Shown here in pieces: positions 2,266 to 50,407 of a stretch of DNA of 64,000 nucleotides. Position numbers and translations under genes: made by a program. The DNA comes from Telmatobacter sp. DSM 110680 (GTDB taxonomy: Bacteria; Acidobacteriota; Terriglobia; Terriglobales; Acidobacteriaceae). The first letter of the stretch is position 1; each line of letters begins with the position of its first letter. The notes below the pieces were generated by a model. It saw only the letters and a list, made by a program, of their open reading frames with translations, was not told the origin of the DNA and did no database searches. Where the stretch lies: contig NZ_CP121196.1 of the NCBI RefSeq assembly GCF_039994875.1, positions 4,960,001-5,024,000 of the forward strand, read 5' to 3'.

Positions 2266-3639
2266 ATGAGCAAGGGATTAGCACGAAAGCTATTTGGGAC
2301 TGATGGAATTCGCGGGATTGCGGGTGAGCCTCCGCTGGATGCGCGAACAATTTACGCAACTGGGCTAGCGCTTGGACATTCGCTGCGCGACCATGCCGAA
2401 CCCAAGGTGATTCTTGGTCGGGACACACGCGAATCCAGCAACTGGATCGCAGCCACCGTGGCTGCAGCATTGCGTGAGACAGGCGTGCGTGTCGAGAGTG
2501 CAGGCGTTGTTCCCACTCCCGCTGTGGCTTTTCTCGCGCAGAATCGTGGATTCGATGCGGGCGTTGTCATTTCTGCTTCCCACAATCCCTGGCGCGACAA
2601 TGGCATCAAGCTGTTTGGCAGAGACGGATTCAAACTGCCGGACGCTGTAGAAGCTTCGATTGAAGACGAGATTCTGCGCCACGCCGAAGAAGCATCAATG
2701 CCGGAACTTTCGGCACTTCCAAGCGTTGAAGACAACGCGGCTCTCCCTGAACAGTACATTCATTTCCTGATTGAAAGCGTGCCGGGGCTTGACTTGAAGG
2801 GCCTGCGAACAGTCGCCGATTGCGCCAACGGTGCCGCCGCCGCGGTTGCGCCCGAGCTTTTCGCGCGTCTGGGTGCACAAATTCCAGACAACTTTACGCT
2901 GCTGAATGTTTCTCCCAATGGGCGCAATATCAACGACGGCTGCGGAGCGATGCACCCGCAATGGGTTGCAGCGGAAGTGCAAAAACATAGAGCTGCAATC
3001 GGGCTGACTTTTGACGGAGATGCCGACCGATGCCTGCTGGCGGGAGTTCGCGGCAATGTGATCAATGGAGACGCGATTCTCCTGATGGCTGCTCGAGATT
3101 TGCAGGCGCGAGGAATGCTGACCGGCGACGTGGTTGTGGCCACGACCATGTCAAACATGGGCCTCGAGGCAGCACTGAAGCGATCGGGCATTCGCATGCT
3201 GCGTGCTCCCGTTGGCGATCGCTACGTGCTGGAACAAATGCAGCAAAACAACGCCGCATTGGGCGGCGAACAGTCAGGCCACATTCTCTTTCCGCACCTG
3301 GCGACGACCGGCGACGGACTTCTGACAGCATTGGTTGTGCTTGACCTCGTTGCTCGCACCGGCAAAAGTGTCGACGAATTGACAGCGGATCTGAAGGTGT
3401 TCCCGCAGGTAATCGTGAATGTAAAAGTGCGCGAGAAGCGGCCGCTTGATTCAATTCCTGCCATCGCAGAGCGAATCCGCGCTGCGGAAGAAGAATTGAA
3501 AGATAGTGGCCGTGTTGTAATTCGATACTCCGGAACAGAGGCTCTCGCGCGTGTCATGATCGAAGCCGAGAGTGAAGAAGCAATGCGTCGTCACGCAGAT
3601 TCAATTGCCGAAGCGATTCGATCTGAACTTGGTGTGTAA
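2266..3639 (+). CDS. glmM: Phosphoglucosamine mutase
   Basis: A 457-residue protein that interconverts glucosamine-6-phosphate and glucosamine-1-phosphate on the route to UDP-GlcNAc for peptidoglycan and other surface polymers. The N-terminal signature KLFGTDGIRG is present. The active-site phosphoserine loop is ISASHNPW (Ser105), the metal-binding loop is FDGDADR, the sugar-binding loop is GGEQSGH, and the C-terminal phosphate-binding loop is RYSGTE. Length and domain order are normal. ATG 2266 starts 4 bases after xseA. After the stop there is only a weak short hairpin near 3655 and no convincing terminator. Confidence 0.97.
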   Translation: MSKGLARKLFGTDGIRGIAGEPPLDARTIYATGLALGHSLRDHAEPKVILGRDTRESSNWIAATVAAALRETGVRVESAGVVPTPAVAFLAQNRGFDAGVVISASHNPWRDNGIKLFGRDGFKLPDAVEASIEDEILRHAEEASMPELSALPSVEDNAALPEQYIHFLIESVPGLDLKGLRTVADCANGAAAAVAPELFARLGAQIPDNFTLLNVSPNGRNINDGCGAMHPQWVAAEVQKHRAAIGLTFDGDADRCLLAGVRGNVINGDAILLMAARDLQARGMLTGDVVVATTMSNMGLEAALKRSGIRMLRAPVGDRYVLEQMQQNNAALGGEQSGHILFPHLATTGDGLLTALVVLDLVARTGKSVDELTADLKVFPQVIVNVKVREKRPLDSIPAIAERIRAAEEELKDSGRVVIRYSGTEALARVMIEAESEEAMRRHADSIAEAIRSELGV

Positions 3640-3712: not shown

Positions 3713-5281
3713 CTACTGCGATTGATCGTTTCCTGACTCATAAATGAACACGTCCTCATTGCCCCAGGCCCAACTATGGGGCGACGTGTAAGCGAGCCGC
3801 AATCCAAGTTGATGAAGACTGGCGTCATCAATTTGCCACTGAGAGATCACTATCGGGGCTGAATTGAACTGGCGACGCAAAGCTTGCAGTTCATCCGAGG
3901 AAATTTGCCGTTTGTCATCCCAGCACCTGCTGAACATGAGAAACGATCCGCGAGAGTAGCAACTGGGATAGTACGCAGAGGCGACCCCGACATAACCGAG
4001 AATCGCTGGGCCTGGCACGTCCGATTGAAAGACTAATGGCCGGGTAGCGAGGTCCGAACGTTCCAGCCAGGTTGCGGCGGCCTTCGCGCCCGAAAATGGG
4101 TACTGCCACTCTTCAAAGCAATAAAAAAAGCAGAGAGATATCTGCATGCCGAGAAGCAGAAATAGAAATGGCTGCGAAAAGTCTTCGGGCAGCCAAGGAC
4201 GGTCGCTATTGTCAGTTGGACCGATCATCAATGCCACGATGTAACTTGTCGCGAGGAATGTGCAGTGGGATTGGAGAGGAAGGTGGACTGTTGGCCATAC
4301 TGCCGCCATCCACAGCAAAGACGCTGTGATCATGAAACATCGACTGCGCCGCCCGGGCAGAACTGACAGCGCAAGCAGCCAAAGGGAGATGGTCAGGAAG
4401 GCATCTAGTATTTCCACTCCAGTCAATGGAGCCGTCTGATACTCATTTGGCTTTGAGAGTGCCTCCAGGTTGAAAGGCACGAAATAATTCCATATTTTGC
4501 CGACACCGAGAACTAGATAATCGATGCTCTTTGCATGGGCGATATGGTACTCAGGGGCATACACATCCGGCGCCGGTCTTAATGTAAAAAAGCAAGTCAA
4601 TAAAGCCAGCCCGAGAATGCCTACTGATGCCCACATCGTTCGATCTTTCAATCGATCGATTGGGTCCTTCATGCTTGTAGAGTTGCCGATCCAATAGAGC
4701 CATACGAAGATTCCGGTCGCGATTGGAATCGCGAAGAAGTGTGTGTTTATCGCCAGTGCGAGCAGGAAAACTGCTGTCCAGCGTCTTGGCCGTTCTGCCA
4801 ACAAGCAGCGTGCTGCACCTATCAGAAGAAAACTCGACAGCATATAATTTCGTGCCATTATTGCCATGAAAAAGAACAGCACGCCGTAGAGAAGCAGGTT
4901 GCGTATGAGCAGCGGCAAGCGACGATAGGACAGGATCATCCACGCAGTCGCCAGTGACAGCGCGTAATTGATGAACTCCATCGACACCATCGGCAAGTGC
5001 AGGTGAGCTGGGATGTAAAGTAGGAGATACCAGAGGGCTGGATGGACTTCGTAACGCAGATGGTGAATCAGATCAAAGATGTTGCGATGATCGCGAGCGA
5101 CCAGCCAAGCCTGCGCTTCATCGAGGTACATTTCGTGCTTGTGGGTCATGACGGCAAGAAGCACTGCAAACAATGCCATCGATCCAAACATGGCGAGGCG
5201 ATCGCCTGACGAATTTTCCTTATCGATCCGCGGAGTTTGATCAAAAGTGACGGGCGGCTGGGGACTTGACTCGCTCTGCAT
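3713..5281 (-). CDS. Polytopic membrane protein, GT-C glycosyltransferase-like
   Basis: A 522-residue protein with roughly ten hydrophobic segments. After a first membrane helix comes an acidic loop, EMYLDEAQAWLVARD, followed by HPALWYLLLY. An acidic pair in the first periplasmic loop is typical of GT-C fold glycosyltransferases (the GT39/ArnT/PMT-like group), which transfer sugars from polyprenyl-phosphate donors. The C-terminal 120 residues are less hydrophobic and probably periplasmic. It ends about 70 bases from the convergent glmM gene and lies downstream of polA on the same strand. The fold assignment is from pattern only; substrate unknown. Confidence 0.6.
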   Translation of the reverse strand: MQSESSPQPPVTFDQTPRIDKENSSGDRLAMFGSMALFAVLLAVMTHKHEMYLDEAQAWLVARDHRNIFDLIHHLRYEVHPALWYLLLYIPAHLHLPMVSMEFINYALSLATAWMILSYRRLPLLIRNLLLYGVLFFFMAIMARNYMLSSFLLIGAARCLLAERPRRWTAVFLLALAINTHFFAIPIATGIFVWLYWIGNSTSMKDPIDRLKDRTMWASVGILGLALLTCFFTLRPAPDVYAPEYHIAHAKSIDYLVLGVGKIWNYFVPFNLEALSKPNEYQTAPLTGVEILDAFLTISLWLLALSVLPGRRSRCFMITASLLWMAAVWPTVHLPLQSHCTFLATSYIVALMIGPTDNSDRPWLPEDFSQPFLFLLLGMQISLCFFYCFEEWQYPFSGAKAAATWLERSDLATRPLVFQSDVPGPAILGYVGVASAYYPSCYSRGSFLMFSRCWDDKRQISSDELQALRRQFNSAPIVISQWQIDDASLHQLGLRLAYTSPHSWAWGNEDVFIYESGNDQSQ

Positions 5282-5423: not shown

Positions 5424-8261
5424 CTAAAGATCGCGCCAATTGGCCCCGAAGCCGAGATCTGCAACAAGCGGCACATTGAGTTTGATCACACCCTCCATCT
5501 CGGTGCGTACCAGTTCTTCCACGTGCGTCGTCTCATCGGTGGGCACCTCGAAAAGCAGTTCGTCGTGGACCTGCAGAACCATGCGAGTCTTCAGTTTTCG
5601 CTCGTTCAATTTGCGATCGATGGAGATCATTGCCAGCTTGATGAGGTCTGCGGCCGTACCTTGCAGAGGGGTATTGACTGCAGTGCGCTCGGCGAATCCG
5701 CGCGAATTTGGATTGCGACTTGAGATATCGGGAATCGGCCGTATCCGTCCGAACAGCGTGCGCACTGCACCGTCCCGTCGAGTCTCTTCAAGGGTCCTTT
5801 CGATGAACGCCTTGACTCCTTGATAGCGCGCGAAGTAGCGATCGATGTAGGCCTTGGCCTCAGCTTGCGGAATGCCCAACTGTGCAGCTAGCCCAAACGG
5901 CGAAATTCCATAGACGATTCCAAAGTTAACGGCCTTGGCGCGGTTACGGGTTTCCTTGTCCATCGTTTCTGCGGGAACGCCGAAAACTTCGCTCGCGGTG
6001 ATTGTGTGGATGTCTTCGTTTTGCTGATAGGCGCGGACGAGAAGAGGGTCGCCGCTATAGTGGGCAAGAAGCCGCAATTCAATTTGCGAGTAATCCGCCG
6101 AGAGCAACTGCGTTCCTGCGGCGCAAACAAACGCGGCACGGATTTCACGACCTAATTCAGTTTTGATTGGGATGTTCTGCAAATTCGGATTGACGGATGA
6201 GAGTCGTCCCGTAGCGGTCGCGGCGGCTTGAAATGTCGTATGAACGCGCGATTCAGAGTCTGCCAGCAGCGGTAGCGAGTCGATGTAATTCGACTTTAGC
6301 TTGGAAAGGTGCCGAAATTCGAGAACCAGCCGCGGAACCTCGTTGATCTCAGCGAGCCCCTCCAGCACGTCCTGCGCCGTCGAAATCGTTTTGCCCTTGC
6401 CGTATTTGACCGGCACTGGCAATCCCATATCTTTGAAAAGCACTTCGCCGAGTTGCTTGGGCGAATTGACGTTGAACCGGCGTCCGGCGATGGAGTATAT
6501 CCGCTCGCCAACACGCTCTAGTTCCTGCCCAAATCTCGCGGATAGACCGTCGAGAACGCCAACGTCGATGCGAACTCCGTTTTTCTCCATTCGATACAGC
6601 ACTGGGGCGAGGGGCAGGTCGATGGTCTCGTAGATACTCGTGACATTGCTGTGTTTCGCCTCGACTCGAAGATCTGTCACCAGTGCATGCGTCGTAGCGG
6701 CTGCAGCGGGAAGCGACTTGGGCGCAGCCTGATTGTGACGCGCGGCAACATCGGCCAGAGTCTGTGTCGTATTGGTTGGATTGAGCGCGTACGACAGCAG
6801 CATGGAGTCATCCACTTTGCCGCGCAGATCGACATTAAGCCCGCAGAGTACGTGCATGGCCAGTTTGAGGTCGTGCACAAACTTCGGCACTTCCGAATCT
6901 TCAAACAGCGATTTCAATTCCGCGGTCAGCCGCAAGCAAAGTCCACGGCCCGGGTCGGTACTAACACCAATACTCGACTCAGTCTTCTTTTCAGCCTCTT
7001 CGACAATATCGAGAAGCGACATGGTTTGTGGAACAACGGGCTCCTCCGAATCTGATTCCGCTTCGGTAGGCTCGACAGCCGCAAGAGCAAAGGCAAAGCC
7101 GTTTTTGCGCGCAGCAGCATAGAACGCCGCTGCCTGTTCGTCGGAAGCCTGATCGATCAGCTCGACAACAGGAGCTGTCGTAGATGGCGCCAGTTCGCGA
7201 AGCATCGAGGTGAATTCGAGCTCGCTGAAAAGCGTTCGGCAAGCTTCAAGGTCTGGTTCCTGCGTTTCCATTGCCTTCAGGTCGAGCGGAAGCGGAACAT
7301 GGCAATCAATGGTGACCAGCTCCTTTGAGAGCAATACCGCTTCGCGATTTTGCTCGAGCGATTCACGATAGCTCTTGCGTTTCACCTCGGCGGCGCGATC
7401 GAGGACAGCCTCGACGCTACCGAATTCCACGATCAGATCGACACTTCCCTTGTCACCAATACCCGGTGCTCCCGGAATGTTGTCGATGTTGTCACCGCGA
7501 AGAGCCATCACGTCGACGACCTTTTCTGGCGGCACTCCCAGAACCTCTGTCACCTTGGCGGCGTCAAGAATCAGATTGTCTTTCTGTGGATTAAGGACTC
7601 TTACGTGTGCCGTAACGAGCTGCATCATGTCTTTGTCGCCGGAGACGATGAAGACTTCATGACCCGCTTCGGCGGCTTCTCGAGCCAGGGTGCCGATGAC
7701 ATCGTCGGCCTCAAACCCTTGCACTTCAAGAATGGGAATGTGCAGCGCCTCCAGTGAACGCCGAATGTATGGGACCTGGCGGCGAAGATCCTCAGGCATC
7801 GACTCGCGCTTCGCCTTGTAGCCCTCGTAGCTGACGTCTTCGAAGCTCTGTGATTTGGAGTTCCATTTGCGCAGGGTGCCGATCGCCTGGGCGCGCTCGT
7901 CCCGAAAGACAGCTCCGCTGGGGTCAAAAACAGCAGCAAAATAACGCGGAGAGAAGTCCTGGCGCAGCTTCTTGATCATGTTGACAAAGACATAAGTAGC
8001 AGCAGTCGGCAGCCCGGACCGCGTAGACATAGGGCGGCTACGCTGCATGGCATGGTAGGCGCGGAAGATAAACGACATCGCGTCAAGAAGAAAAACGGGC
8101 GGCTTTTCCTGGTCAGGCACGGTAACGAGTTTATCAGCGAGGGTGGACAGGCGAGTTGTGGCTGGCCAAAGTCCGAAGAACGCCGAGTTACTCGTATCGG
8201 ACATCTTCGTTGGCGGTTGCTGCGTCGCGTCACATCCTTGGGATACGGCAGCGTCGTGCAT
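5424..8261 (-). CDS. polA: DNA polymerase I
   Basis: A 945-residue family A polymerase for primer removal and repair synthesis. The 5' nuclease domain comes first (VFLLDAMSFIFRAYHAM, GFEADDVIGT, GDNIDNIPGAPGIGDKG). The C-terminal polymerase domain has motif A DYSQIELRLLAH, the O-helix motif RNRAKAVNFGIVYG and motif C QVHDELLFEV. The middle 3'-5' exonuclease region is degenerate: the position of the DxE metal ligands reads FAFALAAVEP and the second motif reads FVHDLKLAMHVL, so proofreading is probably absent. Start: ATG 8261 has a good Shine-Dalgarno AGAGGA 7 bases upstream. ATG 8204 is an alternative, because the similarity to a decayed polA copy at 16.3 kb begins there. Confidence 0.96.
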   Translation of the reverse strand: MHDAAVSQGCDATQQPPTKMSDTSNSAFFGLWPATTRLSTLADKLVTVPDQEKPPVFLLDAMSFIFRAYHAMQRSRPMSTRSGLPTAATYVFVNMIKKLRQDFSPRYFAAVFDPSGAVFRDERAQAIGTLRKWNSKSQSFEDVSYEGYKAKRESMPEDLRRQVPYIRRSLEALHIPILEVQGFEADDVIGTLAREAAEAGHEVFIVSGDKDMMQLVTAHVRVLNPQKDNLILDAAKVTEVLGVPPEKVVDVMALRGDNIDNIPGAPGIGDKGSVDLIVEFGSVEAVLDRAAEVKRKSYRESLEQNREAVLLSKELVTIDCHVPLPLDLKAMETQEPDLEACRTLFSELEFTSMLRELAPSTTAPVVELIDQASDEQAAAFYAAARKNGFAFALAAVEPTEAESDSEEPVVPQTMSLLDIVEEAEKKTESSIGVSTDPGRGLCLRLTAELKSLFEDSEVPKFVHDLKLAMHVLCGLNVDLRGKVDDSMLLSYALNPTNTTQTLADVAARHNQAAPKSLPAAAATTHALVTDLRVEAKHSNVTSIYETIDLPLAPVLYRMEKNGVRIDVGVLDGLSARFGQELERVGERIYSIAGRRFNVNSPKQLGEVLFKDMGLPVPVKYGKGKTISTAQDVLEGLAEINEVPRLVLEFRHLSKLKSNYIDSLPLLADSESRVHTTFQAAATATGRLSSVNPNLQNIPIKTELGREIRAAFVCAAGTQLLSADYSQIELRLLAHYSGDPLLVRAYQQNEDIHTITASEVFGVPAETMDKETRNRAKAVNFGIVYGISPFGLAAQLGIPQAEAKAYIDRYFARYQGVKAFIERTLEETRRDGAVRTLFGRIRPIPDISSRNPNSRGFAERTAVNTPLQGTAADLIKLAMISIDRKLNERKLKTRMVLQVHDELLFEVPTDETTHVEELVRTEMEGVIKLNVPLVADLGFGANWRDL

Positions 8262-33433: not shown

Positions 33434-33631
33434 CTACGTGATCTGAGTGGTGAGGGTGGTCGAGATGTTCGAGAAGGCGTGGTTCAGGCCGGTCGCGAGA
33501 TATCCCATGCCGGTGATCGCGCCGAACGCAATCAAGGCAACAACGAGGGCGTACTCAACGAGATCCTGACCTTCTTCGCGCTCAATCAGGTTCTTCGCTG
33601 CGAGGTACATCTTGTTCATCAGAACGGTCAT
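33434..33631 (-). CDS. flp: Flp/Fap-type pilin
   Basis: A 65-residue prepilin for Tad pili. The leader ends in REEG and the mature protein starts QDLVEYALVVALIAFGA. This gives the Flp signature G/XXXXEY, with Glu+5 and Tyr+6, followed by one hydrophobic helix. The mature pilin would be about 44 residues. ATG 33631 is supported by GGAGA about 7 bases upstream. The prepilin peptidase at 49880-50407 should cleave it. The gene is monocistronic, with an upstream promoter-like region and a strong terminator, as expected for an abundant pilin made at higher levels than its assembly machinery. Confidence 0.93.
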   Translation of the reverse strand: MTVLMNKMYLAAKNLIEREEGQDLVEYALVVALIAFGAITGMGYLATGLNHAFSNISTTLTTQIT

Positions 33632-38678: not shown

Positions 38679-39119
38679 TCAAAGAGAACAAGGTTCTGCG
38701 ACTAGTTCAGAATCTACGATTTCCAGAATGTCTCCGACCTGCGTCTGCGAATCTTGAATTGTTCCGGCAGGAAGTTCCAGCACGGAATGTGCTGAAAGAC
38801 AGGCGGAAAATCTCCAGGCCGGCACGATGGCGCATATCTTCTTCACACGGTACTTGCGATCGAGGTAGACCAGGTCGATCGGAAATTGCATAAAGAATGT
38901 GTGAACTGCCTCGCAGGGAATGATCCATAATCCCTCTCCGGGTCCGAGATTTTTTCTCCCAAGTAAACCTTTGGAGCGTTTTGGCCCGCTACCGGCCACC
39001 TCCAGTTTGTCAGCGAGTTTCGTATCTCTTTTCTGGTTTCGGACCGTCTTACGGATGTTGCAATCATTCCTTTTGGACTTGTCGTCGCCCGCGGATTTCG
39101 TTTCCTGAGATTGATTCAT
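38679..39119 (-). CDS. DUF192 domain protein
   Basis: A 146-residue protein. The first 35 residues are charged, and the DUF192 domain covers about residues 38-140. Its features are RSKGLLGRKNLGPGEGLWI, then AVHTFFMQFPIDLVYLD and LELPAGTIQD. DUF192 proteins are usually small and secreted or cytoplasmic, with no settled function. No signal peptide is obvious here. It is the last gene of the minus-strand rcpC-rcpA group, separated from rcpA by a hairpin. A second DUF192 domain occurs fused to PilZ at 43929-44897, which suggests a link to the Tad system. Confidence 0.85.
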   Translation of the reverse strand: MNQSQETKSAGDDKSKRNDCNIRKTVRNQKRDTKLADKLEVAGSGPKRSKGLLGRKNLGPGEGLWIIPCEAVHTFFMQFPIDLVYLDRKYRVKKICAIVPAWRFSACLSAHSVLELPAGTIQDSQTQVGDILEIVDSELVAEPCSL

Positions 39120-39287: not shown

Positions 39288-40832
39288 CTACTGCGGAGCA
39301 GGTTGAGATGAGACCGCGCCGCCACCGCCGCCGCCCACCGACATTCCTCCGTCGATTGTAAGCGGCGTTTCCGGTTTCATGCTTTCGATGAGTTTTTCCA
39401 CCGGGATTGTTGCGGGCGGAGGCGGAGCTGTTGCCCCAGCGATCTTCGTATCCGGTGTGTGCATCGGAATCGCAGAATTTGGCGGTAGAAACCCTTCCGG
39501 GAACTTCAACTCCGGAACCGGCGTGCCTGCGTCGATGGGATTCACGATCTCGGGAGTCACAATAACGATCAACTCCGTATTGCTTTTCTTCCTATCCATA
39601 GACTGAAAGAATTTACCCAGAATCGGAATGTCACCCAGAAAAGGAATTTTCTGGAAATTGGCATTTTCACGATTATCGAGCAACCCACCGATTACGAAAC
39701 TCTGTCCATCGGCTAGTTCAACTTCTGTTTTGACGCGACGGATGGTAAGTGCCGGAACTGTCGCGCCACCAATATTCACGGCATTACCATAGTCCAGGGC
39801 GCTGACTTCAGGAGCGACCTGCAGTCGAATCGTGCCGCGGTTCGTTATGGTCGGCAGAAATGCAATCAAGACGCCGTACTGCTTGTACTGAATCGTAATA
39901 GGAGCTGAGGCGCCACCAGTAGATCCAGATTGAGCCACCGGATATGGATATTCTCCGCCTGCCAGAAAGCTGGCCTGGTGCCCATTCTTGGCGAGCACAT
40001 TGGGCTCGGCCAAAACTTCAGCCAGCCCCTTCGTCTCTAAGGCCTGAATCGTGGCCCCCAAGTTGATGCCAGGATAAAAAGCAAAAAGGTTCAGAGGATT
40101 AACCGCGCTAAGGGTGGCACCCGATCCGCTGGGTGTGGGCGACGGACCTGGAAATTGGCCAGTCGAAACAGCACCAATCGTATTTCCTAAGCCGGTACTG
40201 AAGATATTGATGCCAAGCTGCTTCTCCTTGGTACGGTCGATACTGGCAAAACGCACCTTGAGGAGAATCTGGGGCTCTGGAGCAGGGACATTAACATTGA
40301 GAAGGTTAATGACCTTCCCGGCCGTAGAAGCGATCATGACAGCGCGGTCGGAGCTGTTCAAATTGGTTACTGTACCGCGCAGGAAAATCACACCACTATC
40401 TTGGGAAACTCTCACGTTCTGGCCAGGCAGCTCGGCTCGAAGTTCCCTGCGAAGTCCGTCAAGCACGTCAGTTGAAGCGAACGTGCTCGGTCGGACTGTG
40501 ACGTTGAAGAACTGCCGCCCGCCGCTCTGATCCCAAATGATCAGGCTCGTCTCTCCCGCGGCCTTGCCGCTAAGCAGAATCTGCGTGGGGCTGACTGCTT
40601 GTGCCTGCGCAAAATCGCCTAGTCCCACCACGATCCTTGTGACTGGTCTCGCCAGATCGAGTACGACCGATTTACCCACGGATAACGACAGGTCGTTGGT
40701 TGAATCCTGGTTCGTTGTTGCCGCCGGCTGGGTACCCGGCGGGGGTGCCTGGGCCAACACGGCCAGACCGGCACAAAATACAAGCGTCAGCGTACTGACA
40801 CTGGCAATGGCAATCCCAGTTTTCGGTTTCAC
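39288..40832 (-). CDS. rcpA: Tad pilus outer-membrane secretin (RcpA/CpaC)
   Basis: A 514-residue protein with an N-terminal signal sequence (about residues 1-28). Domains in order: a pilus-assembly N-terminal domain (LSLSVGKSVVLDLARPVTRI), a BON-like segment (GVIFLRGTVTNLNSSDRA), and the secretin domain of the type II/III secretion family (AEPNVLAKNGHQASFLAGGE, ADGQSFVIGGLLDN, LGDIPILGKFF, ELIVIVTPEIVNP). The C-terminal tail is proline- and glycine-rich. It forms the outer-membrane channel for Flp pili. Its ATG lies inside the end of rcpC (4-base overlap), so the two are coupled. Confidence 0.93.
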   Translation of the reverse strand: MKPKTGIAIASVSTLTLVFCAGLAVLAQAPPPGTQPAATTNQDSTNDLSLSVGKSVVLDLARPVTRIVVGLGDFAQAQAVSPTQILLSGKAAGETSLIIWDQSGGRQFFNVTVRPSTFASTDVLDGLRRELRAELPGQNVRVSQDSGVIFLRGTVTNLNSSDRAVMIASTAGKVINLLNVNVPAPEPQILLKVRFASIDRTKEKQLGINIFSTGLGNTIGAVSTGQFPGPSPTPSGSGATLSAVNPLNLFAFYPGINLGATIQALETKGLAEVLAEPNVLAKNGHQASFLAGGEYPYPVAQSGSTGGASAPITIQYKQYGVLIAFLPTITNRGTIRLQVAPEVSALDYGNAVNIGGATVPALTIRRVKTEVELADGQSFVIGGLLDNRENANFQKIPFLGDIPILGKFFQSMDRKKSNTELIVIVTPEIVNPIDAGTPVPELKFPEGFLPPNSAIPMHTPDTKIAGATAPPPPATIPVEKLIESMKPETPLTIDGGMSVGGGGGGAVSSQPAPQ

Positions 40833-41692
40833 TGTTTCCCCCCGGGCGCTGCAAATTGACTTTCAGTTTTAGTGCTCCCGTTAATCACGGTAACGGTGAA
40901 CGTTTCAGGCTTCGGCTTTGCGGGCGCTACGCGACCGGTCAGTTTGGGCTTGCTCGCCGGGGCATTCTGATCCAGGAACAGGTTGGTCATTGCGGTTCCC
41001 TGCACCGACGCAACCTTGGTGTCGAGCGGATTGCGGAGTACGAGCTGGATGCGTGTCTCGTTGCTGGCCAATGCCATGACCTGTGCCTGCTCGGGTGTTA
41101 CGAGCAAGTTGACGACCTGCACCTGTAGAGGTTTGCCTTCGGCGTCCTTTTGAATATCAGTACCAGCCGAAAGAACCTCGATATTCTGAAGGACGGTTCT
41201 GACCTGGGTATTGTTGTTTCCTCCGCCACCTCCACCGCCGTTGGTGGGAGGCACGCCGGAGATGAGGACGTCGACGTGCATGCCGGGAGTTACGAATCCG
41301 GCTACGCCGACAACCTGGTCGACGCGAACGGCAATGGCACGCATGCCGTCCTTGATGGTCGCGGCCAAACCGCCGCCTGACCCGACGGGAGCCAGTCGAT
41401 CTTCCAGGATTGGTTCACCGGCATACAGCGACGAGGTAACTCCGCGGCCAATCGCGTTCTTGGCATCGAGAATCGCGGTCTTCGGCACCGTTCCCATGAT
41501 CTGTACCGTGGTCAGATCCGGCGCGCTGAGCACTGTGCCAATTTTGATATCGGTCGCGGCGGCAACTACGCGCGTTGAAGGTTGCGGTTTCACTGCAGCA
41601 ATGCGCATGCCGACCAACCGGTAGACGAGCACGGAGCACAGTGCCGCTACAACAAATGCAGCAAGGAGGATGGTTACCAGTCTTCGGTTCAT
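40829..41692 (-). CDS. cpaB: Tad pilus assembly protein RcpC/CpaB
   Basis: A 287-residue protein with one N-terminal membrane helix (TILLAAFVVAALCSVLVYRL) and a SAF domain (AAATDIKIGTVLSAPDLTTV, IGRGVTSSLYAGEPILEDRL). The RcpC/CpaB domain follows (GMRAIAVRVDQVVGVAGFV and TVLQNIEVLSAGTDIQKDA). It is a periplasmic partner of the secretin RcpA and may contact peptidoglycan. A low-complexity insert with glycine and asparagine runs lies near residues 150-165. It overlaps rcpA by 4 bases. A motif resembling the flp upstream repeats lies about 60 bases before its start. Confidence 0.92.
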   Translation of the reverse strand: MNRRLVTILLAAFVVAALCSVLVYRLVGMRIAAVKPQPSTRVVAAATDIKIGTVLSAPDLTTVQIMGTVPKTAILDAKNAIGRGVTSSLYAGEPILEDRLAPVGSGGGLAATIKDGMRAIAVRVDQVVGVAGFVTPGMHVDVLISGVPPTNGGGGGGGNNNTQVRTVLQNIEVLSAGTDIQKDAEGKPLQVQVVNLLVTPEQAQVMALASNETRIQLVLRNPLDTKVASVQGTAMTNLFLDQNAPASKPKLTGRVAPAKPKPETFTVTVINGSTKTESQFAAPGGKQ

Positions 41693-42311: not shown

Positions 42312-43823
42312 ATGAGGTCAGCGCGCACCATCAGCCTTTTTACCGTACAGCCGGAGCCGCCTCGCGGGCGTTCGGCGCTGGTAGCTTCGGTTGTTCTGCA
42401 CAGCTCGGCCATCGTGCTCGTGTTGTCAGCCTTTGTGTACTCTCCGCAGTTCCGTTTGAATACGCCGGATATGTACATGATGCAGCATGTCGATCTCAAC
42501 ATGCCGTACCCTACGCTTCCCAAATCCGGCGGAAGCGGAAGCATGTATCCTAAGTCCTCATCCTCGGCCGCTGAATCTTCAGCGCATGAACAAATCGCCG
42601 CCCCAGCTTCCAGCCGAATTCACTTCATGCACAGAAAACTTGCTGCCCAAACGCTCATCGACCCGGAGGTTGATCCGGAGAAGATGTTGCCGAAGGAAAC
42701 ACCCCTTCCGCAAATGTTGCTTTGGTCCGGCCACCGGCCGAAGGTGCAGGTTCTCACGCCGCCCAAACCCCAGCCCCCTTCGATCACCCTGGATAAACCA
42801 AAGCTCAATTTTCCCAACAAAGAAGTCCAGATTGCCGACTTGAACATCTCAGCGACACGTTTCTCGTCAAAGCTTCCGATGCCCATGCCGAGCAACACTT
42901 CCCCGGTAATCCTGAAGCGCGACCTTGACGTTCAGCGCATCCCGGAGACCGGTTCAGTTTCGACCTTGGAAGCCACACCAGCCGCAATTCTCTCTGCATC
43001 TGACCTTCAAATGGCCCAGGGGCGTGTCACGATGCCCGGTGCAAATCAGTCTGCTGAGGGCACAGAACAGGGAGGGCTCGGAACCGGCAAGGCTCCGAAT
43101 TCTTTAACCCATGGGGTTGGAGACTCTGGTAGCACAGGTTCAGAAAAAGGCTCGGGCAAAGGACAGAATTCGACCGGCGGACAGTCCGCGGGCCCCGGAA
43201 ACGGCGGTGGAGCCCAAAAGGGTCCTGGAACGGGTACGGCCGGAAATGGCTCACAAGCAGGAACAGGGGGCGGCAAAGGTGCCGGGCATAACGACGGCGC
43301 GGGATCGGGGTCGTCAAGTGGGCATGGCTCTGGCGACGGTGACAACGGGGCCGTCACGCGCATCAGCCTGTCCAAAAATGGCACCTTTGGCGTCGTTGTA
43401 GTGGGATCCTCGCTCGATGAGCAGTATCCCGAGACTTCCGAGGTTTGGAAGGGGCGCCTGGCCTACTCGGTTTACCTGCACGTCGGACTGGAAAAGAGCT
43501 GGGTTCTTCAATACTCGCTTCCGCGCGCCGCTGATTCAGCAAACGCAGGCAGCGCACGGCTCGAAGCTCCGTGGCCGTATTACATTGTTCGACCCAATCT
43601 GAACCCCGACGATGCCGACTCCGATGCCGTAATGGTGCACGGTTTTGTCGACGAGGCGGGTCACTTTGAAAAGCTCTCTGTCGTCTTTCCTACGGATCTT
43701 GGATATGCGCGTGAGCAACTCGTCCTTGGCGCCTTGCAGCAGTGGCAGTTCCGCGCCGGTACCCATGACGGTCAGATTGCCAAGCTCGAAGTGCTCTTGA
43801 TCATCCCGGAGACGAGCCAATAG
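42312..43823 (+). CDS. TonB-like protein with a glycine-rich linker
   Basis: A 503-residue protein with TonB-like layout. It has a short cytoplasmic N-terminus, one membrane helix (about residues 22-45, ALVASVVLHSSAIVLVL) and a proline-rich stretch (150-170). A long Gly/Ser/Thr-rich spacer covers about residues 245-350. The C-terminal domain of about 110 residues contains VMVHGFVDEAGHFEKL and LGALQQWQFRAGTHDG, typical of TonB C-terminal domains. It may transmit force or connect inner and outer membranes. It is on the plus strand between two halves of the minus-strand Tad cluster. No ExbB/ExbD genes are seen, so energy coupling is unproven. Confidence 0.72.
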   Translation: MRSARTISLFTVQPEPPRGRSALVASVVLHSSAIVLVLSAFVYSPQFRLNTPDMYMMQHVDLNMPYPTLPKSGGSGSMYPKSSSSAAESSAHEQIAAPASSRIHFMHRKLAAQTLIDPEVDPEKMLPKETPLPQMLLWSGHRPKVQVLTPPKPQPPSITLDKPKLNFPNKEVQIADLNISATRFSSKLPMPMPSNTSPVILKRDLDVQRIPETGSVSTLEATPAAILSASDLQMAQGRVTMPGANQSAEGTEQGGLGTGKAPNSLTHGVGDSGSTGSEKGSGKGQNSTGGQSAGPGNGGGAQKGPGTGTAGNGSQAGTGGGKGAGHNDGAGSGSSSGHGSGDGDNGAVTRISLSKNGTFGVVVVGSSLDEQYPETSEVWKGRLAYSVYLHVGLEKSWVLQYSLPRAADSANAGSARLEAPWPYYIVRPNLNPDDADSDAVMVHGFVDEAGHFEKLSVVFPTDLGYAREQLVLGALQQWQFRAGTHDGQIAKLEVLLIIPETSQ

Positions 43824-43928: not shown

Positions 43929-44897
43929 CTAGGAAGGCTGCTGTACCCGTTGGATAAAGCGTTGCAATGCCTTCTTGCCTACGCCTGTTTCAGGCAGCGT
44001 CTCTCCGGTAGTCAAATCGACAGTATTGGATGGAACAAAGGACAGACCGACGCCATCTGTGCCCCACCGAATCACCTTGGTCAGAACAGAAATGAAGTCG
44101 TCGGGATCATCGCCGTCGGTATTCGTACGCTGCAGCGTCATCAGGATCATGGTTCCCGGGAACCAGCGTTCATCGGTTAGCAAATAAAGACCGTTGGTGC
44201 TGATGTCAGCGATGTGAAAAGCCTGCGGAGCTCCGCCTGTCCAGTAATAGGCGACCAAGCCTGGCAGCGGATGGCGCTTCGATCCTCGCCTATCAGTCGA
44301 AAGCCAGCGAAGAAAGCGAATAAACCATGATGCATTACGGATTGGATCAGATTCCATGCTGTCCTTCTCCGCAAGGCGCTTATGAGCGCTCTGTAATTCC
44401 GCGGCCTGATCGACCTCGAAGGATGACTCGACTACTGCAGCCGATCCGGACTTCCGTGTTGCTACCCGGTCCCCAGATGCCACAGAAGCCGTTGCAGATT
44501 TGTTCGAAAGGCGAGCCAGACGCTCTTCCATCTCATCTGCAACGCAGATTAAGAGCATATCTTCGGGTTGTGTATGACTCGACAGAATCGTGTGTTCGGC
44601 CAGTACCAGCGCGCTCGCTGGCTGATCCCTGGTCGGCTCTATGGCGTGATTAGGAAAAGACTCGATTGCTTGTATGACCCGATTGTCGTCGTCGAGGTAG
44701 ATCAAATCCACGGGGCTAAGACCTTTTGTCGCCGGCACCCCCCGAAAGGGTGTCAACCACAAACCCGAATCAGCTTTGATCGAGAGATCCTCCATGAGCA
44801 CTTTAAGTTGCTTGGCAGCCGTATCAGCAACCGCAACTCCCAGGCTTAGAAAACTCTCTCGTGTTTGGTTGTACACACAATACTTGCGGGTTTCCAT
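43929..44897 (-). CDS. DUF192-PilZ fusion protein, likely c-di-GMP binding
   Basis: A 322-residue two-domain protein. Residues about 15-120 match DUF192 (LKVLMEDLSIKADSGLWLTP, then LSPVDLIYLDDDNRV). A variable linker (about 121-200) follows, then a PilZ domain (about 201-290). The c-di-GMP-binding motifs are intact: RxxxR at Arg204 and Arg208 (RGSKR), and DxSxxG at Asp231-Gly236 (DISTNG). The protein is downstream of tadC and the 31-residue membrane peptide on the same strand. A PilZ receptor in a Tad cluster could tie pilus assembly to c-di-GMP levels. The combination with DUF192 is unusual. Confidence 0.8.
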   Translation of the reverse strand: METRKYCVYNQTRESFLSLGVAVADTAAKQLKVLMEDLSIKADSGLWLTPFRGVPATKGLSPVDLIYLDDDNRVIQAIESFPNHAIEPTRDQPASALVLAEHTILSSHTQPEDMLLICVADEMEERLARLSNKSATASVASGDRVATRKSGSAAVVESSFEVDQAAELQSAHKRLAEKDSMESDPIRNASWFIRFLRWLSTDRRGSKRHPLPGLVAYYWTGGAPQAFHIADISTNGLYLLTDERWFPGTMILMTLQRTNTDGDDPDDFISVLTKVIRWGTDGVGLSFVPSNTVDLTTGETLPETGVGKKALQRFIQRVQQPS

Positions 44898-45213: not shown

Positions 45214-45309
45214 TTACTTAACCCGTGTGCGGCGCCGCTGAATCAGAATAACCAGCACGATGACAAAGAGCACCCCGGATACGATCCGGATAATTGTGGT
45301 TTGGTCCAT
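45214..45309 (-). CDS. 31-residue single-span membrane peptide in the tad operon
   Basis: ATG 45309 is preceded by a strong Shine-Dalgarno (GGGAGAG, about 7 bases upstream). It encodes 31 residues: MDQTTIIRIVSG, a hydrophobic span of about 16 residues, and a basic tail QRRRTRVK. This gives one membrane helix with a positive C-terminus. It starts 34 bases after tadC in the same direction. The ribosome site, the helix and the operon position support a real small gene. Function unknown; it might modulate the TadB/TadC platform. A longer reading of the same frame (from 45486) overlaps tadC and lacks a site. Confidence 0.65.
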   Translation of the reverse strand: MDQTTIIRIVSGVLFVIVLVILIQRRRTRVK

Positions 45310-45343: not shown

Positions 45344-46258
45344 TTAGTTGTTGCCAAAAAGCGATTTGAATGAGTCCGCCATGACCAGTACTGCGGGGCC
45401 AAGGACGACCAGAAAGAGCGATGGAAAAATAAACAACACGAGGGGGAACAACAGCTTGACGGAAAGCTTTGCCGCCTTCTCTTCAATTTCCTGAACGCGT
45501 TTTGTTCTCAAGGTATCAGAGTGAACACGCAGTGTCTTGCCGATACTGGTTCCAAATTGTTCGGCCTGAACCAGCATGGAAACAAGGTTGCGTATAACGT
45601 CGACATCGGTGCGCTCTGCCAGGTGCTTCCATGCATCTGAACGCGCACGTCCCGCGCGCTGCTCCAGAGCCACGATTCCGAGCTCATCGCTCAGCGCCGG
45701 TTGCGCCCTAACCAATTCCTGGGCAGTGCGGGCGGTGGCCTGATCGAGACTCAATCCGGCTTCGACACAGATTACGAGAAGATCAAGAACGTCTGGAAGA
45801 CCTTTCTTCATCTCAGCCTGGCGATTGGCGATCTTTCTTCCCAGCCAGAAATCGGGACCCAAAAATCCAACGCCGCCAGCCAGGAGGAAAATGAAAAGCG
45901 GACCAATATGATATGCACCTGTAACCCATGCAAGCAGCATGAGTACGATCGGCGTAATCACCTTGGCACTGTAAAACGTCTTGACTGCGGTATCTGAGCG
46001 AAATCCAGCACGAATCAGCCTTTGCTGAACCACTGAAGTTTCAGCCTGGCTGCGCGGCAGAATCTTTTCAAACTGCTCCACCACACCGCCGATCACGTGG
46101 CGGGTTTCTTCGATTGTGGTAGAGATCGTCTTCTTATTGGCGCGCGGATAAAGCGCGGATGAAATACGATCCTGGATCTTGTCGCGGTAGAAAATCAACA
46201 CGCCACCGCTACCGATAAGCAAGAACGCAACTAGAAACGAAATGACTGCAAATGCCAT
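45344..46258 (-). CDS. tadC: Tad pilus inner-membrane platform protein TadC
   Basis: A 304-residue type II secretion F-domain protein with an N-terminal helix (VISFLVAFLLIGSGGVLIFY), two middle helices and a C-terminal helix pair. The F-domain features are KKGLPDVLDLLVICVEAGLS, EQFGTSIGKTLRVHSDTLR and KLLFPLVLFIFPSLFLVVLG. With TadB it forms the inner-membrane platform driven by TadA. It starts 9 bases after tadB, with GAGGA about 6 bases before ATG. Confidence 0.93.
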   Translation of the reverse strand: MAFAVISFLVAFLLIGSGGVLIFYRDKIQDRISSALYPRANKKTISTTIEETRHVIGGVVEQFEKILPRSQAETSVVQQRLIRAGFRSDTAVKTFYSAKVITPIVLMLLAWVTGAYHIGPLFIFLLAGGVGFLGPDFWLGRKIANRQAEMKKGLPDVLDLLVICVEAGLSLDQATARTAQELVRAQPALSDELGIVALEQRAGRARSDAWKHLAERTDVDVIRNLVSMLVQAEQFGTSIGKTLRVHSDTLRTKRVQEIEEKAAKLSVKLLFPLVLFIFPSLFLVVLGPAVLVMADSFKSLFGNN

Positions 46259-46267
46259 AGGTCCTCG

Positions 46268-47239
46268 CTAGACGTCCATGTTCACAATTTTGCGGATAAT
46301 CAAACCACCAATGACGATCATGGTACCTGCTGCATACAGCAACTTGATGCCAAGGTCCTTCTTCCACAACATACTCATAAGGTCTGGGTTGACGAAATAC
46401 AGCAACATTCCTAGTACAACGGGAAGAAGAGTCAGAATCCATCCAGTCAAACGTCCCTGCGCCGTGTGCGTAAGAACCTGGCGTTTCAAGCGGAAGCGTT
46501 CGCGAATTACCTGAGATGTCTTCTCCAGAACTTCTGCAAGGTTGCCGCCGCTCTCGCGTTGAATCAAGATCGCCGTGCAGACAATCTTGACGTCCTGCAA
46601 TGGGACACGAACAACTAGATTATCGAGAGCCGACTTCAATTCAAGTCCGTAGTTCATTTCGTCAAAGGTCAGGCGAAACTCTCCGCCGACAGGATCGGAA
46701 CATTCGCGGGATACAAGACCCATTGCGGCATTCAAACTGTGGCCCACGCGAAGAGCGCTCACAATTAGTTCGAGTGCCTCTGGAATGCCCTCTTCGAATT
46801 TGTTCATGCGCCTTTTGCGCTTTTGGAATACCCAAAACACTGGCGCCGCTCCGGTCACGAATCCTACCAGGATGGCGGCAAAGATTGCGCCGGTCCGCCA
46901 ATACGCGAGGTAGGCCGGCACGACGAAGCACACACCGCAGAGCAGGCTCAGGCCGCCCACCGTCCACTTCACATTGGCCTGATACAGGAACCGACGAATA
47001 CGAGGGGCAAGCTCGAGCTTTGAGAGAAACCTGTCAAGCCAGGGAATCGAACTCATTAGTTCGCTCTTGCGAACGTCTACGATGAGATCGGCCATCTCAG
47101 GTTTACCCACGGCGATCGCGGATTCAAGCCTGGTCATGATCGCACGGGTTTGTTCCGTCGCTCCCGAGCCACTGGCCGCGGCGATTAGAACGACAACTCC
47201 GAAAACACCCAAGAACACGAGTCCGACAATGACTGCCAT
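46268..47239 (-). CDS. tadB: Tad pilus inner-membrane platform protein TadB
   Basis: A 323-residue F-domain protein with an N-terminal helix, a hydrophobic pair near residues 95-135, the F-domain EEGIPEALELIVSALRVGHS, and RESGGNLAEVLEKTSQVIRE. Helices at the C-terminus follow. It forms the platform with TadC. ATG 47239 is preceded by a near-perfect Shine-Dalgarno GGGAGGT. The order tadA-tadB-tadC with small gaps (26 and 9 bases) is the classic Tad operon core. Confidence 0.93.
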   Translation of the reverse strand: MAVIVGLVFLGVFGVVVLIAAASGSGATEQTRAIMTRLESAIAVGKPEMADLIVDVRKSELMSSIPWLDRFLSKLELAPRIRRFLYQANVKWTVGGLSLLCGVCFVVPAYLAYWRTGAIFAAILVGFVTGAAPVFWVFQKRKRRMNKFEEGIPEALELIVSALRVGHSLNAAMGLVSRECSDPVGGEFRLTFDEMNYGLELKSALDNLVVRVPLQDVKIVCTAILIQRESGGNLAEVLEKTSQVIRERFRLKRQVLTHTAQGRLTGWILTLLPVVLGMLLYFVNPDLMSMLWKKDLGIKLLYAAGTMIVIGGLIIRKIVNMDV

Positions 47240-47265: not shown

Positions 47266-48537
<1,272 letters not shown>

Positions 48538-48586
48538 TGATTCCACGATGCGCCGTCCTCAATTACAAATTCCGTCACCTAACGGG

Positions 48587-49786
48587 TTATTTGAAAAGGC
48601 TGAATCCTTTTCGCTTCTCCGGCTTGGCGGGCATCCCGCAAGCCGCTCGTGCCATGTCCTGGAGTACCTTTGCAATGCTTGAATCATCCAATGCCAGGGG
48701 AACTGCCTCGTTCTGCATCCGACGAACGTTATAGTAGTCGCTTGGAATCTTCCATGCGATGGGCTTCGTGAGGGCCTTCTCGATATGCTCCTCATCCACT
48801 CCCATCGAGCTCTTCACATAGCGATTCAGCACAATCTCCAGTTGCGGAGTTCCTGATTTGAAAAACTCTGAAATCAGCCGGTGAGAATTCCGAAGTTCAG
48901 GAATACCCGCCTGCATGACCAGGAAAGCCGTGTCGGCCTGTGCGAACCATGAAGCATCGGTCAAATCGAATCGCGATCCCGCATCGATCACCACGTATGC
49001 GAAATCCTGTCGCGCCACTGTGAGCATCTTTTCAATCTGATCGTTACTCGCCTGCACCTGAGGAAATCTTCCCGGCGCAGCCAACACAGGCAGACCGGAA
49101 CTATGAGTCGTGAGCAGTTTCGAAAAAAAGTTCGAATCCATGCGATCCGCATTTTGCAATGCATCGGCAGTGGAAAACTGCGTGGTAAGTCCAAGGCTTA
49201 ATGCAGCATCGCCCAGTGGAAGATCAAGATCGATCAGAACCGCAGTCTGCTGGCACTCCTGCACCAAAGCGACCGCGAAGTTACAAGCCACCGTAGTTAC
49301 ACCCGACCCGCCTTTACTTCCCAGAAAAACCAGAATCTTACCGCCGGCCTTTTTGGCGGACTTTCCTCCCTGACGTCGCGACGAGGCGCGAACCATTGCG
49401 TCGGAGAGATTTCCTGGATCAATCGGATCCGACAAGAACTCGCGTGCACCTGCCCGCATCGAGCGAGCCATTAAATTCGGATCAAGCCGCGACGCGTATA
49501 CCATCACCGTCGTCGAGCTTCCCGAGGCAACGAACTCTACCAGTTCCAAGGCGTATTCGACGTCGGATTCTAGGTCGATGATGACGGCGTCGAAAGCTTT
49601 TTCACCCAGCATTCTGGGCATTTCTTTTAAAGTCGGAGGATAAGACGAGTACTCCCGCACAATCGCAGCATGTGCGCTATTGAGTGCACTCGCAATCGTC
49701 CTCCTGCGCTGCTCGCTCGGGCAGATCAGAGCAATCGATAGTACATTGCCACCTAGGGGATCAAGGTCGTGCGTGTTATCAGTCAC
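48587..49786 (-). CDS. tadZ: Tad pilus localisation protein TadZ/CpaE
   Basis: A 399-residue protein. Residues about 15-135 form an atypical receiver-like domain (AVIIDLESD keeps an Asp at the phosphoacceptor position). Residues about 148-399 form a ParA/MinD-type ATPase with the deviant Walker A GSKGGSGVTT (156-165) and VLIDLDLPLGDAALSLG. TadZ/CpaE places the pilus machinery at the cell pole or another site. It follows tadV after 93 bases and precedes tadA by 49 bases. Confidence 0.93.
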   Translation of the reverse strand: MTDNTHDLDPLGGNVLSIALICPSEQRRRTIASALNSAHAAIVREYSSYPPTLKEMPRMLGEKAFDAVIIDLESDVEYALELVEFVASGSSTTVMVYASRLDPNLMARSMRAGAREFLSDPIDPGNLSDAMVRASSRRQGGKSAKKAGGKILVFLGSKGGSGVTTVACNFAVALVQECQQTAVLIDLDLPLGDAALSLGLTTQFSTADALQNADRMDSNFFSKLLTTHSSGLPVLAAPGRFPQVQASNDQIEKMLTVARQDFAYVVIDAGSRFDLTDASWFAQADTAFLVMQAGIPELRNSHRLISEFFKSGTPQLEIVLNRYVKSSMGVDEEHIEKALTKPIAWKIPSDYYNVRRMQNEAVPLALDDSSIAKVLQDMARAACGMPAKPEKRKGFSLFK

Positions 49787-49879: not shown

Positions 49880-50407
49880 TCAATGAGAAAAGAAGGAAAT
49901 GAGAGTACCAATAGCGATTGCCGGAGCATAAGGCATCTTGCGCGCTTTCGGGTTGGAAAGCTTAAGCTCTTCGGGCGCGTGCATTCCTCGCTCCTTCCAA
50001 CCAAATACCAGGTCACCGGCTCCTGAAAACATCTCTCCTAGAAATCCTCCGAAGATAGCCCAGGCAATGGCCATCACGCCGCCAACTACCGCAATCAATA
50101 CCAGGGCCATTACAAGCTGCTGCCACCATATCCATGCTCCGATGGCGGCGCAAAGCTTTACATCACCCATCCCCATGCCGCCCATCATCGCCAGCAGTCC
50201 ATAAATGAGACCGCCAAGTAGCATGCCGCCAAGGCTCTCACCCAGGCCATGCCACCCCCCAACAAACGTCGACACCACGAGTCCCGCCAACAAAAACGGA
50301 AAAACCAGCCAGTTCGGAATGCGCCGGCTGCGAAGGTCTGTAATGGTCGCCACAATTAGTACCGCGAGCGTCGGCCACCAGGCATAAGCGTGTTGCAAAT
50401 GCTGCAA
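49880..50407 (-). CDS. tadV: Prepilin peptidase TadV/CpaA
   Basis: A 175-residue type IV (A24 family) prepilin peptidase without the extra methylase domain. The two catalytic Asp residues are visible in ATITDLRSRRIPN and GMGDVKL. About five hydrophobic segments are present. It cleaves the Flp prepilin leader (after Gly in REEG). The start is TTG 50407, supported by GGAGGA 6 bases upstream. It is the first gene of the tadV-tadZ-tadA-tadB-tadC operon. Confidence 0.93.
   Translation of the reverse strand: MQHLQHAYAWWPTLAVLIVATITDLRSRRIPNWLVFPFLLAGLVVSTFVGGWHGLGESLGGMLLGGLIYGLLAMMGGMGMGDVKLCAAIGAWIWWQQLVMALVLIAVVGGVMAIAWAIFGGFLGEMFSGAGDLVFGWKERGMHAPEELKLSNPKARKMPYAPAIAIGTLISFFSH

Follow-up and report, generated by a model that had tools for sequence, protein, structure and literature searches.

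A DUF192::PilZ fusion protein in the Tad pilus locus of Telmatobacter sp. DSM 110680 as candidate c-di-GMP receptor

In a stretch of 64,000 nucleotides from the soil acidobacterium Telmatobacter sp. DSM 110680 (the window), a DUF192::PilZ fusion protein of 322 amino acids is encoded on the minus strand (43929..44897), as an open reading frame with an ATG start located among the genes of a Tad (type IVc) pilus. With roughly even confidence, this protein is proposed to serve the Tad pilus as a dedicated c-di-GMP receptor in the cytoplasm, which would act at the inner-membrane/minor-pilin end of the machine. The preliminary description of this DNA had suggested that the fusion renders pilus assembly responsive to c-di-GMP, and such a response appears plausible.

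The protein consists of a DUF192 domain (about residues 5-121), a linker (about 125-185) modeled by AlphaFold2 with very low confidence, and a PilZ domain (about 202-291). The latter was recognized by Pfam (PF07238, residues 202-291) with 26.5 bits at a cut-off of 22.5 and features the ligand motifs R204-GSK-R208 (RxxxR) and D231-ISTN-G236 ((D/N)x(S/A)xxG); both binding motifs are thus kept as described before, and the residue numbers given then (Arg204/Arg208, Asp231-Gly236) were exact. The AlphaFold2 model of the fusion, for which 14 relatives served as input, is of moderate confidence (mean pLDDT 62.5), and the PilZ beta-barrel of this moderate-confidence model matched 4rt0, 8u0i and 4xrn in Foldseek with a probability of 1.00, including the c-di-GMP-bound PilZ domains of Alg44 (4rt0) and PA0012 (8u0i). 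The known PilZ receptors Alg44, YcgR and PA0012 (PF07238) feature the same RxxxR and DxSxxG motifs, whereas the partner domain of the protein considered here is DUF192. The DUF192 model (PF02643) reached 20.9 bits over residues 21-83 of the N-terminal half, which is below the cut-off of 27. Despite this sub-threshold match, the earlier assignment of this half to DUF192 is right: profile-profile alignment (hhalign) with the stand-alone DUF192 group yielded a probability of 99.5 and an E value of 5.9e-23 over 116 columns, and Foldseek related it to the solved DUF192 structures 3pjy and 3m7a (target-normalised TM 0.64 and 0.56). A sequence search of the PDB with the fusion profile returned nothing useful. 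Resemblance to DUF192 by chance is ruled out by the alignment, the fold match and the domain tree described below. Likewise, an assembly error or frame artefact is ruled out, since the domains are fused in many independent genomes, with at least two origins on the tree. The nearest named relative found is Occallatibacter savannae, with 75% identity in the fusion. Judged by its residues, the N-terminal half is a derived and not a canonical DUF192 domain, because the signature R..GLLGR and HT..M.FPID has been lost.

The position of the fusion inside a Tad cluster, as previously claimed, was confirmed by Pfam matches to tadV, tadZ, tadA, tadB, tadC, rcpC and rcpA, all of which are encoded on the minus strand, as are the fusion and the stand-alone DUF192 protein. 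In this lineage the operon is divided into two parts. One part comprises the prepilin peptidase gene tadV (A24; 49880..50407), tadZ/cpaE (48587..49786), the motor ATPase gene tadA/cpaF (47266..48546) and the genes of the two T2SSF platform proteins, tadB (46268..47239) and tadC (45344..46258), followed about 35 bp after tadC by an open reading frame for a single-helix microprotein of 31 amino acids (MDQTTIIRIVSGVLFVIVLVILIQRRRTRVK; 45214..45309, minus strand) and, beyond a gap of 316 bp, by the fusion gene; scans for promoters and terminators were at or below shuffle level and lend no support to co-transcription across this gap. The other part consists of rcpC/cpaB (40829..41692), the secretin gene rcpA (39288..40832) and the stand-alone DUF192 gene (38679..39119; Pfam 66.4 bits), which ends the rcpC-rcpA group as noted before and whose product is without evident signal peptide and retains the signature R..GLLGR and HTFFMQFPIDLVYLD. 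Between both parts, a divergent gene on the plus strand (42312..43823) encodes a protein of 503 amino acids without Pfam or NCBIfam match, which most relatives retain at the same place. The Flp/Fap major pilin match (33455..33562, minus strand; 32.8 bits, cut-off 32.2) lies apart from the other Tad genes, at a distance of about 5 kb past the stand-alone DUF192 gene. No TadE/TadG minor pilins adjoin the tad locus of the window; TadE-like genes occur elsewhere in the genome. By the Pfam model, the two DUF192 domains of the window are the only ones in the complete 6-Mb genome. The microprotein, for which no Pfam or NCBIfam match was obtained, directly follows tadC in the majority of relatives (loci L005, L013, L102 and others), where its gene is at times repeated in tandem, with two or three copies. 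A comparison of the window with locus L003 revealed 12 differing codons and 0 residue changes, a pattern by which the microprotein is judged to be under purifying selection.

Among related loci, all PilZ-linked cases observed originate from one bacterial family, which features the order tadC-microprotein-DUF192-PilZ-TadE-TadE with neighboring genes fused either as DUF192::PilZ, as in the window, or as PilZ::TadE. Three arrangements follow tadC: fused DUF192::PilZ, to which TadE genes are appended in some loci and not in others; separate DUF192 and PilZ genes, about -3 to 36 bp apart and mostly succeeded by separate TadE genes; and DUF192 followed by PilZ joined in frame to TadE. The PilZ gene immediately precedes a TadE minor-pilin gene in many genera of this family, and PilZ::TadE occurs in genera other than that of the window. 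The same orders (DUF192::PilZ; DUF192, PilZ, TadE, TadE; DUF192, PilZ::TadE, TadE) were found in the larger set, where locus counts include the near-duplicates L007/L008, L011/L089 and L019/L053. In the first 19 fusion loci, tadV-Z-A-B-C precede the fusion wherever the contig permits, except in L017, and the position after tadC is conserved while the identity of the fusion falls to about 30%. The PilZ::TadE proteins (L019, 10439-11347; L022, 13827-14756; L026, 14521-15549; L024, 3300-4277) carry the PilZ part ahead of the prepilin cleavage site (G|QALIEY), and both PilZ and TadE exceed the Pfam cut-off in L019, L024 and L026. Since four distinct loci (L019/L053, L022, L094, L099) contain no ATG, GTG or TTG between PilZ and the cleavage site, PilZ there occupies the place of the prepilin leader, and an overlap of two genes, the second beginning at such an internal codon, is ruled out for these loci. 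An internal start is possible in L024, L026, L092, L093 and L095, with the candidate starts in L024 and L026 leaving leaders of 48-65 residues.

The full PilZ motif occurs in 42 of the 46 PilZ domains examined, near-duplicates counted, which agrees with a PilZ half of the c-di-GMP-binding type; degenerate motifs were found in L014, L020, L022 and L099. The DUF192 signature (R..GLIG, HT.G..FP.D) is kept in the split and post-rcpA copies and lost in the fused ones, which instead share a near-invariant N-terminus, KYCVYNQT..E.FLSL. Invariant positions of the fused DUF192 halves comprise YCVYNQT, E14, FLSL and HTI..S.T. In the DUF192-domain tree, the post-tadC copies with PilZ neighbors form one supported clade (41 rows, 100/97), within which fused copies arise among split ones at least twice, while the post-rcpA copies belong to another group.

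The relation of DUF192 to Tad pili extends well beyond this family. DUF192 and RcpC, a component specific to Tad systems, were searched in 247 acidobacterial genomes, in a survey based on family samples in which kinship was partly controlled. DUF192 scores fell into two groups, and 29 of the 37 low-scoring copies listed (under 80 bits) shared contig and strand with rcpC and were 1.9-14.8 kb away from it, in 11 families; two further low-scoring copies adjoin other tad genes (L033, L039). No high-scoring copy was found near rcpC in the 11 genomes that feature rcpC as well, and in the 4 of these holding both DUF192 kinds, only the low-scoring copy lies near rcpC. In the family of the window, DUF192 was present in all 18 genomes with rcpC and in none of the 11 without it (Fisher p 2.9e-8, uncorrected for kinship). 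Of the two points on which the preliminary description had staked its proposal in advance, the statistical association of DUF192 genes with tad loci was tested and held, far beyond chance. The usual acidobacterial order outside the family of the window is tadV-rcpC-rcpA-tadZ-tadA-tadB-tadC-DUF192, with DUF192 placed before tadV in some families. Outside the phylum, where cases were drawn from plasmid records, DUF192 is located between tadC and a TadE gene in Moraxella, at the end of Tad clusters in Streptomyces and after the prepilin peptidase in Alkaliphilus; a Halomonas plasmid copy lies outside any tad locus. The gene orders indicate that one DUF192 subfamily is a Tad accessory gene, which is a wide and real pattern. 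A Tad function of all DUF192 proteins is ruled out by the Halomonas plasmid copy and the high-scoring subfamily, and the statement holds for one subfamily only because this second large subfamily is never found near rcpC.

These data also modify the view that DUF192 has a structural or sensory role in Tad pili, which had been derived from the presence of two DUF192 proteins around one pilus system. The Tad association and the c-di-GMP type of the PilZ domain lend partial support to such a role, but the argument from two proteins is unsupported, since tad operons of most acidobacterial families regularly contain a single DUF192 gene and the operon of the window lineage is split, with one copy in each part. 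Moreover, the fused DUF192 domain cannot simply share the job of the stand-alone copy, because its signature residues are lost.

A search with the fusion profile revealed further members in the genome of the window as well as many matches to the PilZ half. Two full-length paralogues are part of operons with minor pilins, one in the order fusion-TadG-TadE-TadE (L075, about 5159-5163 kb) and one in the order TadE-TadG-fusion (L074, about 5082-5085 kb), and at about 3478-3482 kb (L076) a gene for a PilZ protein precedes those of TadE and TadG. The TadE/TadG cassettes with paralogues contain no tadA, and the genome holds a single rcpC match and 19 GGDEF matches. Many scattered TadE/TadG cassettes were observed, at about 5747-5755, 5160-5163, 5082-5085, 3479-3480, 2367, 2197-2199 and 1208-1211 kb, some of their TadG proteins having VWA-like regions. 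At another site of the genome (about 1718-1721 kb; L077, 8293..10953), a protein of 886 amino acids features a DUF192-like start, a very long middle and a PilZ end and is followed by another PilZ gene, and at about 4932-4936 kb (L081, 6276..10053) three PilZ genes of about 380-410 amino acids stand in a row on one strand. No pilus genes lie beside L077 or beside L017 and L090 of relatives, and the architecture is therefore not confined to tad loci.

According to the proposed mechanism, the PilZ half would bind c-di-GMP, while the DUF192-derived half would serve as the docking part by which the receptor is held at the inner-membrane platform, the candidate partners being TadB/TadC, the 31-amino-acid microprotein or, through its cytoplasmic end, a minor pilin. 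Binding of c-di-GMP to PilZ may alter this docking contact and thereby gate the loading of TadE/TadG minor pilins, which in turn would control the start (or the retraction) of pilus polymerisation. Since the main locus is without minor pilins and two paralogues are found in operons with dispersed TadE/TadG genes, each cassette in the strain of the window may supply a separate adaptor that senses c-di-GMP, all of them serving a common machine. In favor of the receptor reading stand both folds and the ligand motifs, the conserved place after tadC, the two kinds of fusion, the paralogues beside TadE/TadG genes, the GGDEF matches of the genome and the control of Tad pili by c-di-GMP in Caulobacter (PMC6581867). 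Against it must be held that the DUF192 half is without signature residues, so that the docking partner is a guess. Further points against it are the paralogues apart from pilus genes, the four degenerate PilZ motifs, the lack of a TadE gene beside the fusion of the window and the restriction of the PilZ-linked cases observed to a single family. A broader view, which we regard as doubtful, would combine DUF192, PilZ and TadE to a single device that loads the Tad tip under the control of c-di-GMP. The receptor of some genera would then be the prepilin leader cut off by TadV, so that the ligand could decide on processing and release of the tip subunit; in the lineage of the window, the DUF192 docking protein would carry it, and the paralogues would act for tip cassettes that can be exchanged.

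Type II PilZ proteins use the PilZ fold as a protein-binding module, and the fusion could accordingly be a c-di-GMP-independent adaptor, i.e., a structural factor in minor-pilin assembly. Such an adaptor would resemble the founding type IV pilus PilZ, which acts by contacting the proteins PilB and FimX (PMC11656802), and would fit four relatives (L014, L020, L022, L099) that retain the locus despite a degenerate PilZ motif; it is considered rather unlikely, as the full motif persists in the great majority of PilZ domains although the fused DUF192 signature was lost, and as the C-terminal half resembles c-di-GMP-bound structures. The receptor might also act on the motor ATPase TadA instead of minor pilins or platform, the tie to TadE reflecting mere operon economy. 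In type IV pili, known c-di-GMP receptors do target the extension ATPase (PMC11656802, PMC6581867), and tadA belongs to the same gene run as the fusion. Nevertheless, conserved adjacency and fusions among the post-tadC orders involve tadC, DUF192 and TadE and never tadA, and the paralogues accompany cassettes devoid of tadA, which makes this explanation unlikely. By sequence, both of these alternatives and the receptor reading are inseparable.

That the protein is a general c-di-GMP regulator of the lineage, not tied to the pilus and merely inheriting its place after tadC, would fit the paralogues outside tad contexts (L017, L077, L090) and the many PilZ-half matches in the genome. We regard it as quite improbable in view of the place kept throughout the divergence of the fusion and of the Tad parts included in both fusion types. 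Decay of the DUF192 half, in the sense of an ancestral Tad copy which lost its site after duplication and is now idle, would account for the missing R..GLIG and HT.G..FP.D in fused copies; it is highly improbable, as the other invariant positions (YCVYNQT, E14, FLSL, HTI..S.T) would not be preserved by decay and more than 20 relatives have an intact reading frame.

The candidate receptor has counterparts in other pilus systems. The interchangeable Tad tips of Myxococcus Kil pili (PMC12075869) likewise involve several dispersed TadE/TadG-like cassettes in one genome; in the genome of the window, these cassettes accompany a single rcpC match, and one machine may use several of them. To our knowledge, the Kil tips have neither a PilZ nor a DUF192 partner. 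With the control of type IVa and MSHA pili by FimX-PilZ-PilB and MshE, the proposal has the principle of a c-di-GMP receptor dedicated to a pilus machine in common. Those systems target the extension ATPase, whereas tadC, DUF192 and TadE minor pilins are the genetic partners here. The Tad link of DUF192 predates the present work, having been noted once, in a paper of December 2025 that records DUF192 within the tad operon of Bulleidia and its relatives and assigns no function to it (PMC12786226). The Bulleidia extructa protein belongs to the same family (PF02643), takes a place in the tad operon and has the same nearest structures, 3pjy and 3m7a, but is a stand-alone protein of 112 amino acids without described function and with no PilZ partner named in the passage on it (PMC12786226), whereas one copy here is joined to PilZ and lacks the signature residues. 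The PilZ neighbor order and the alternative fusions are new. In the open-licence literature, neither a paper with DUF192 and PilZ together nor a functional study of DUF192 was found.

In Caulobacter, c-di-GMP controls the dynamics of Tad pili, and the authors invoked effector proteins without identifying them (PMC6581867). The fusion locus offers a named and testable candidate for a receptor coupling c-di-GMP to the Tad machine, to which it is linked through conserved adjacency and gene fusions of two types. For DUF192, a functional setting emerges as a Tad accessory protein in several phyla. The use of a PilZ domain as prepilin leader would, if true, represent a new mode of pilus regulation.
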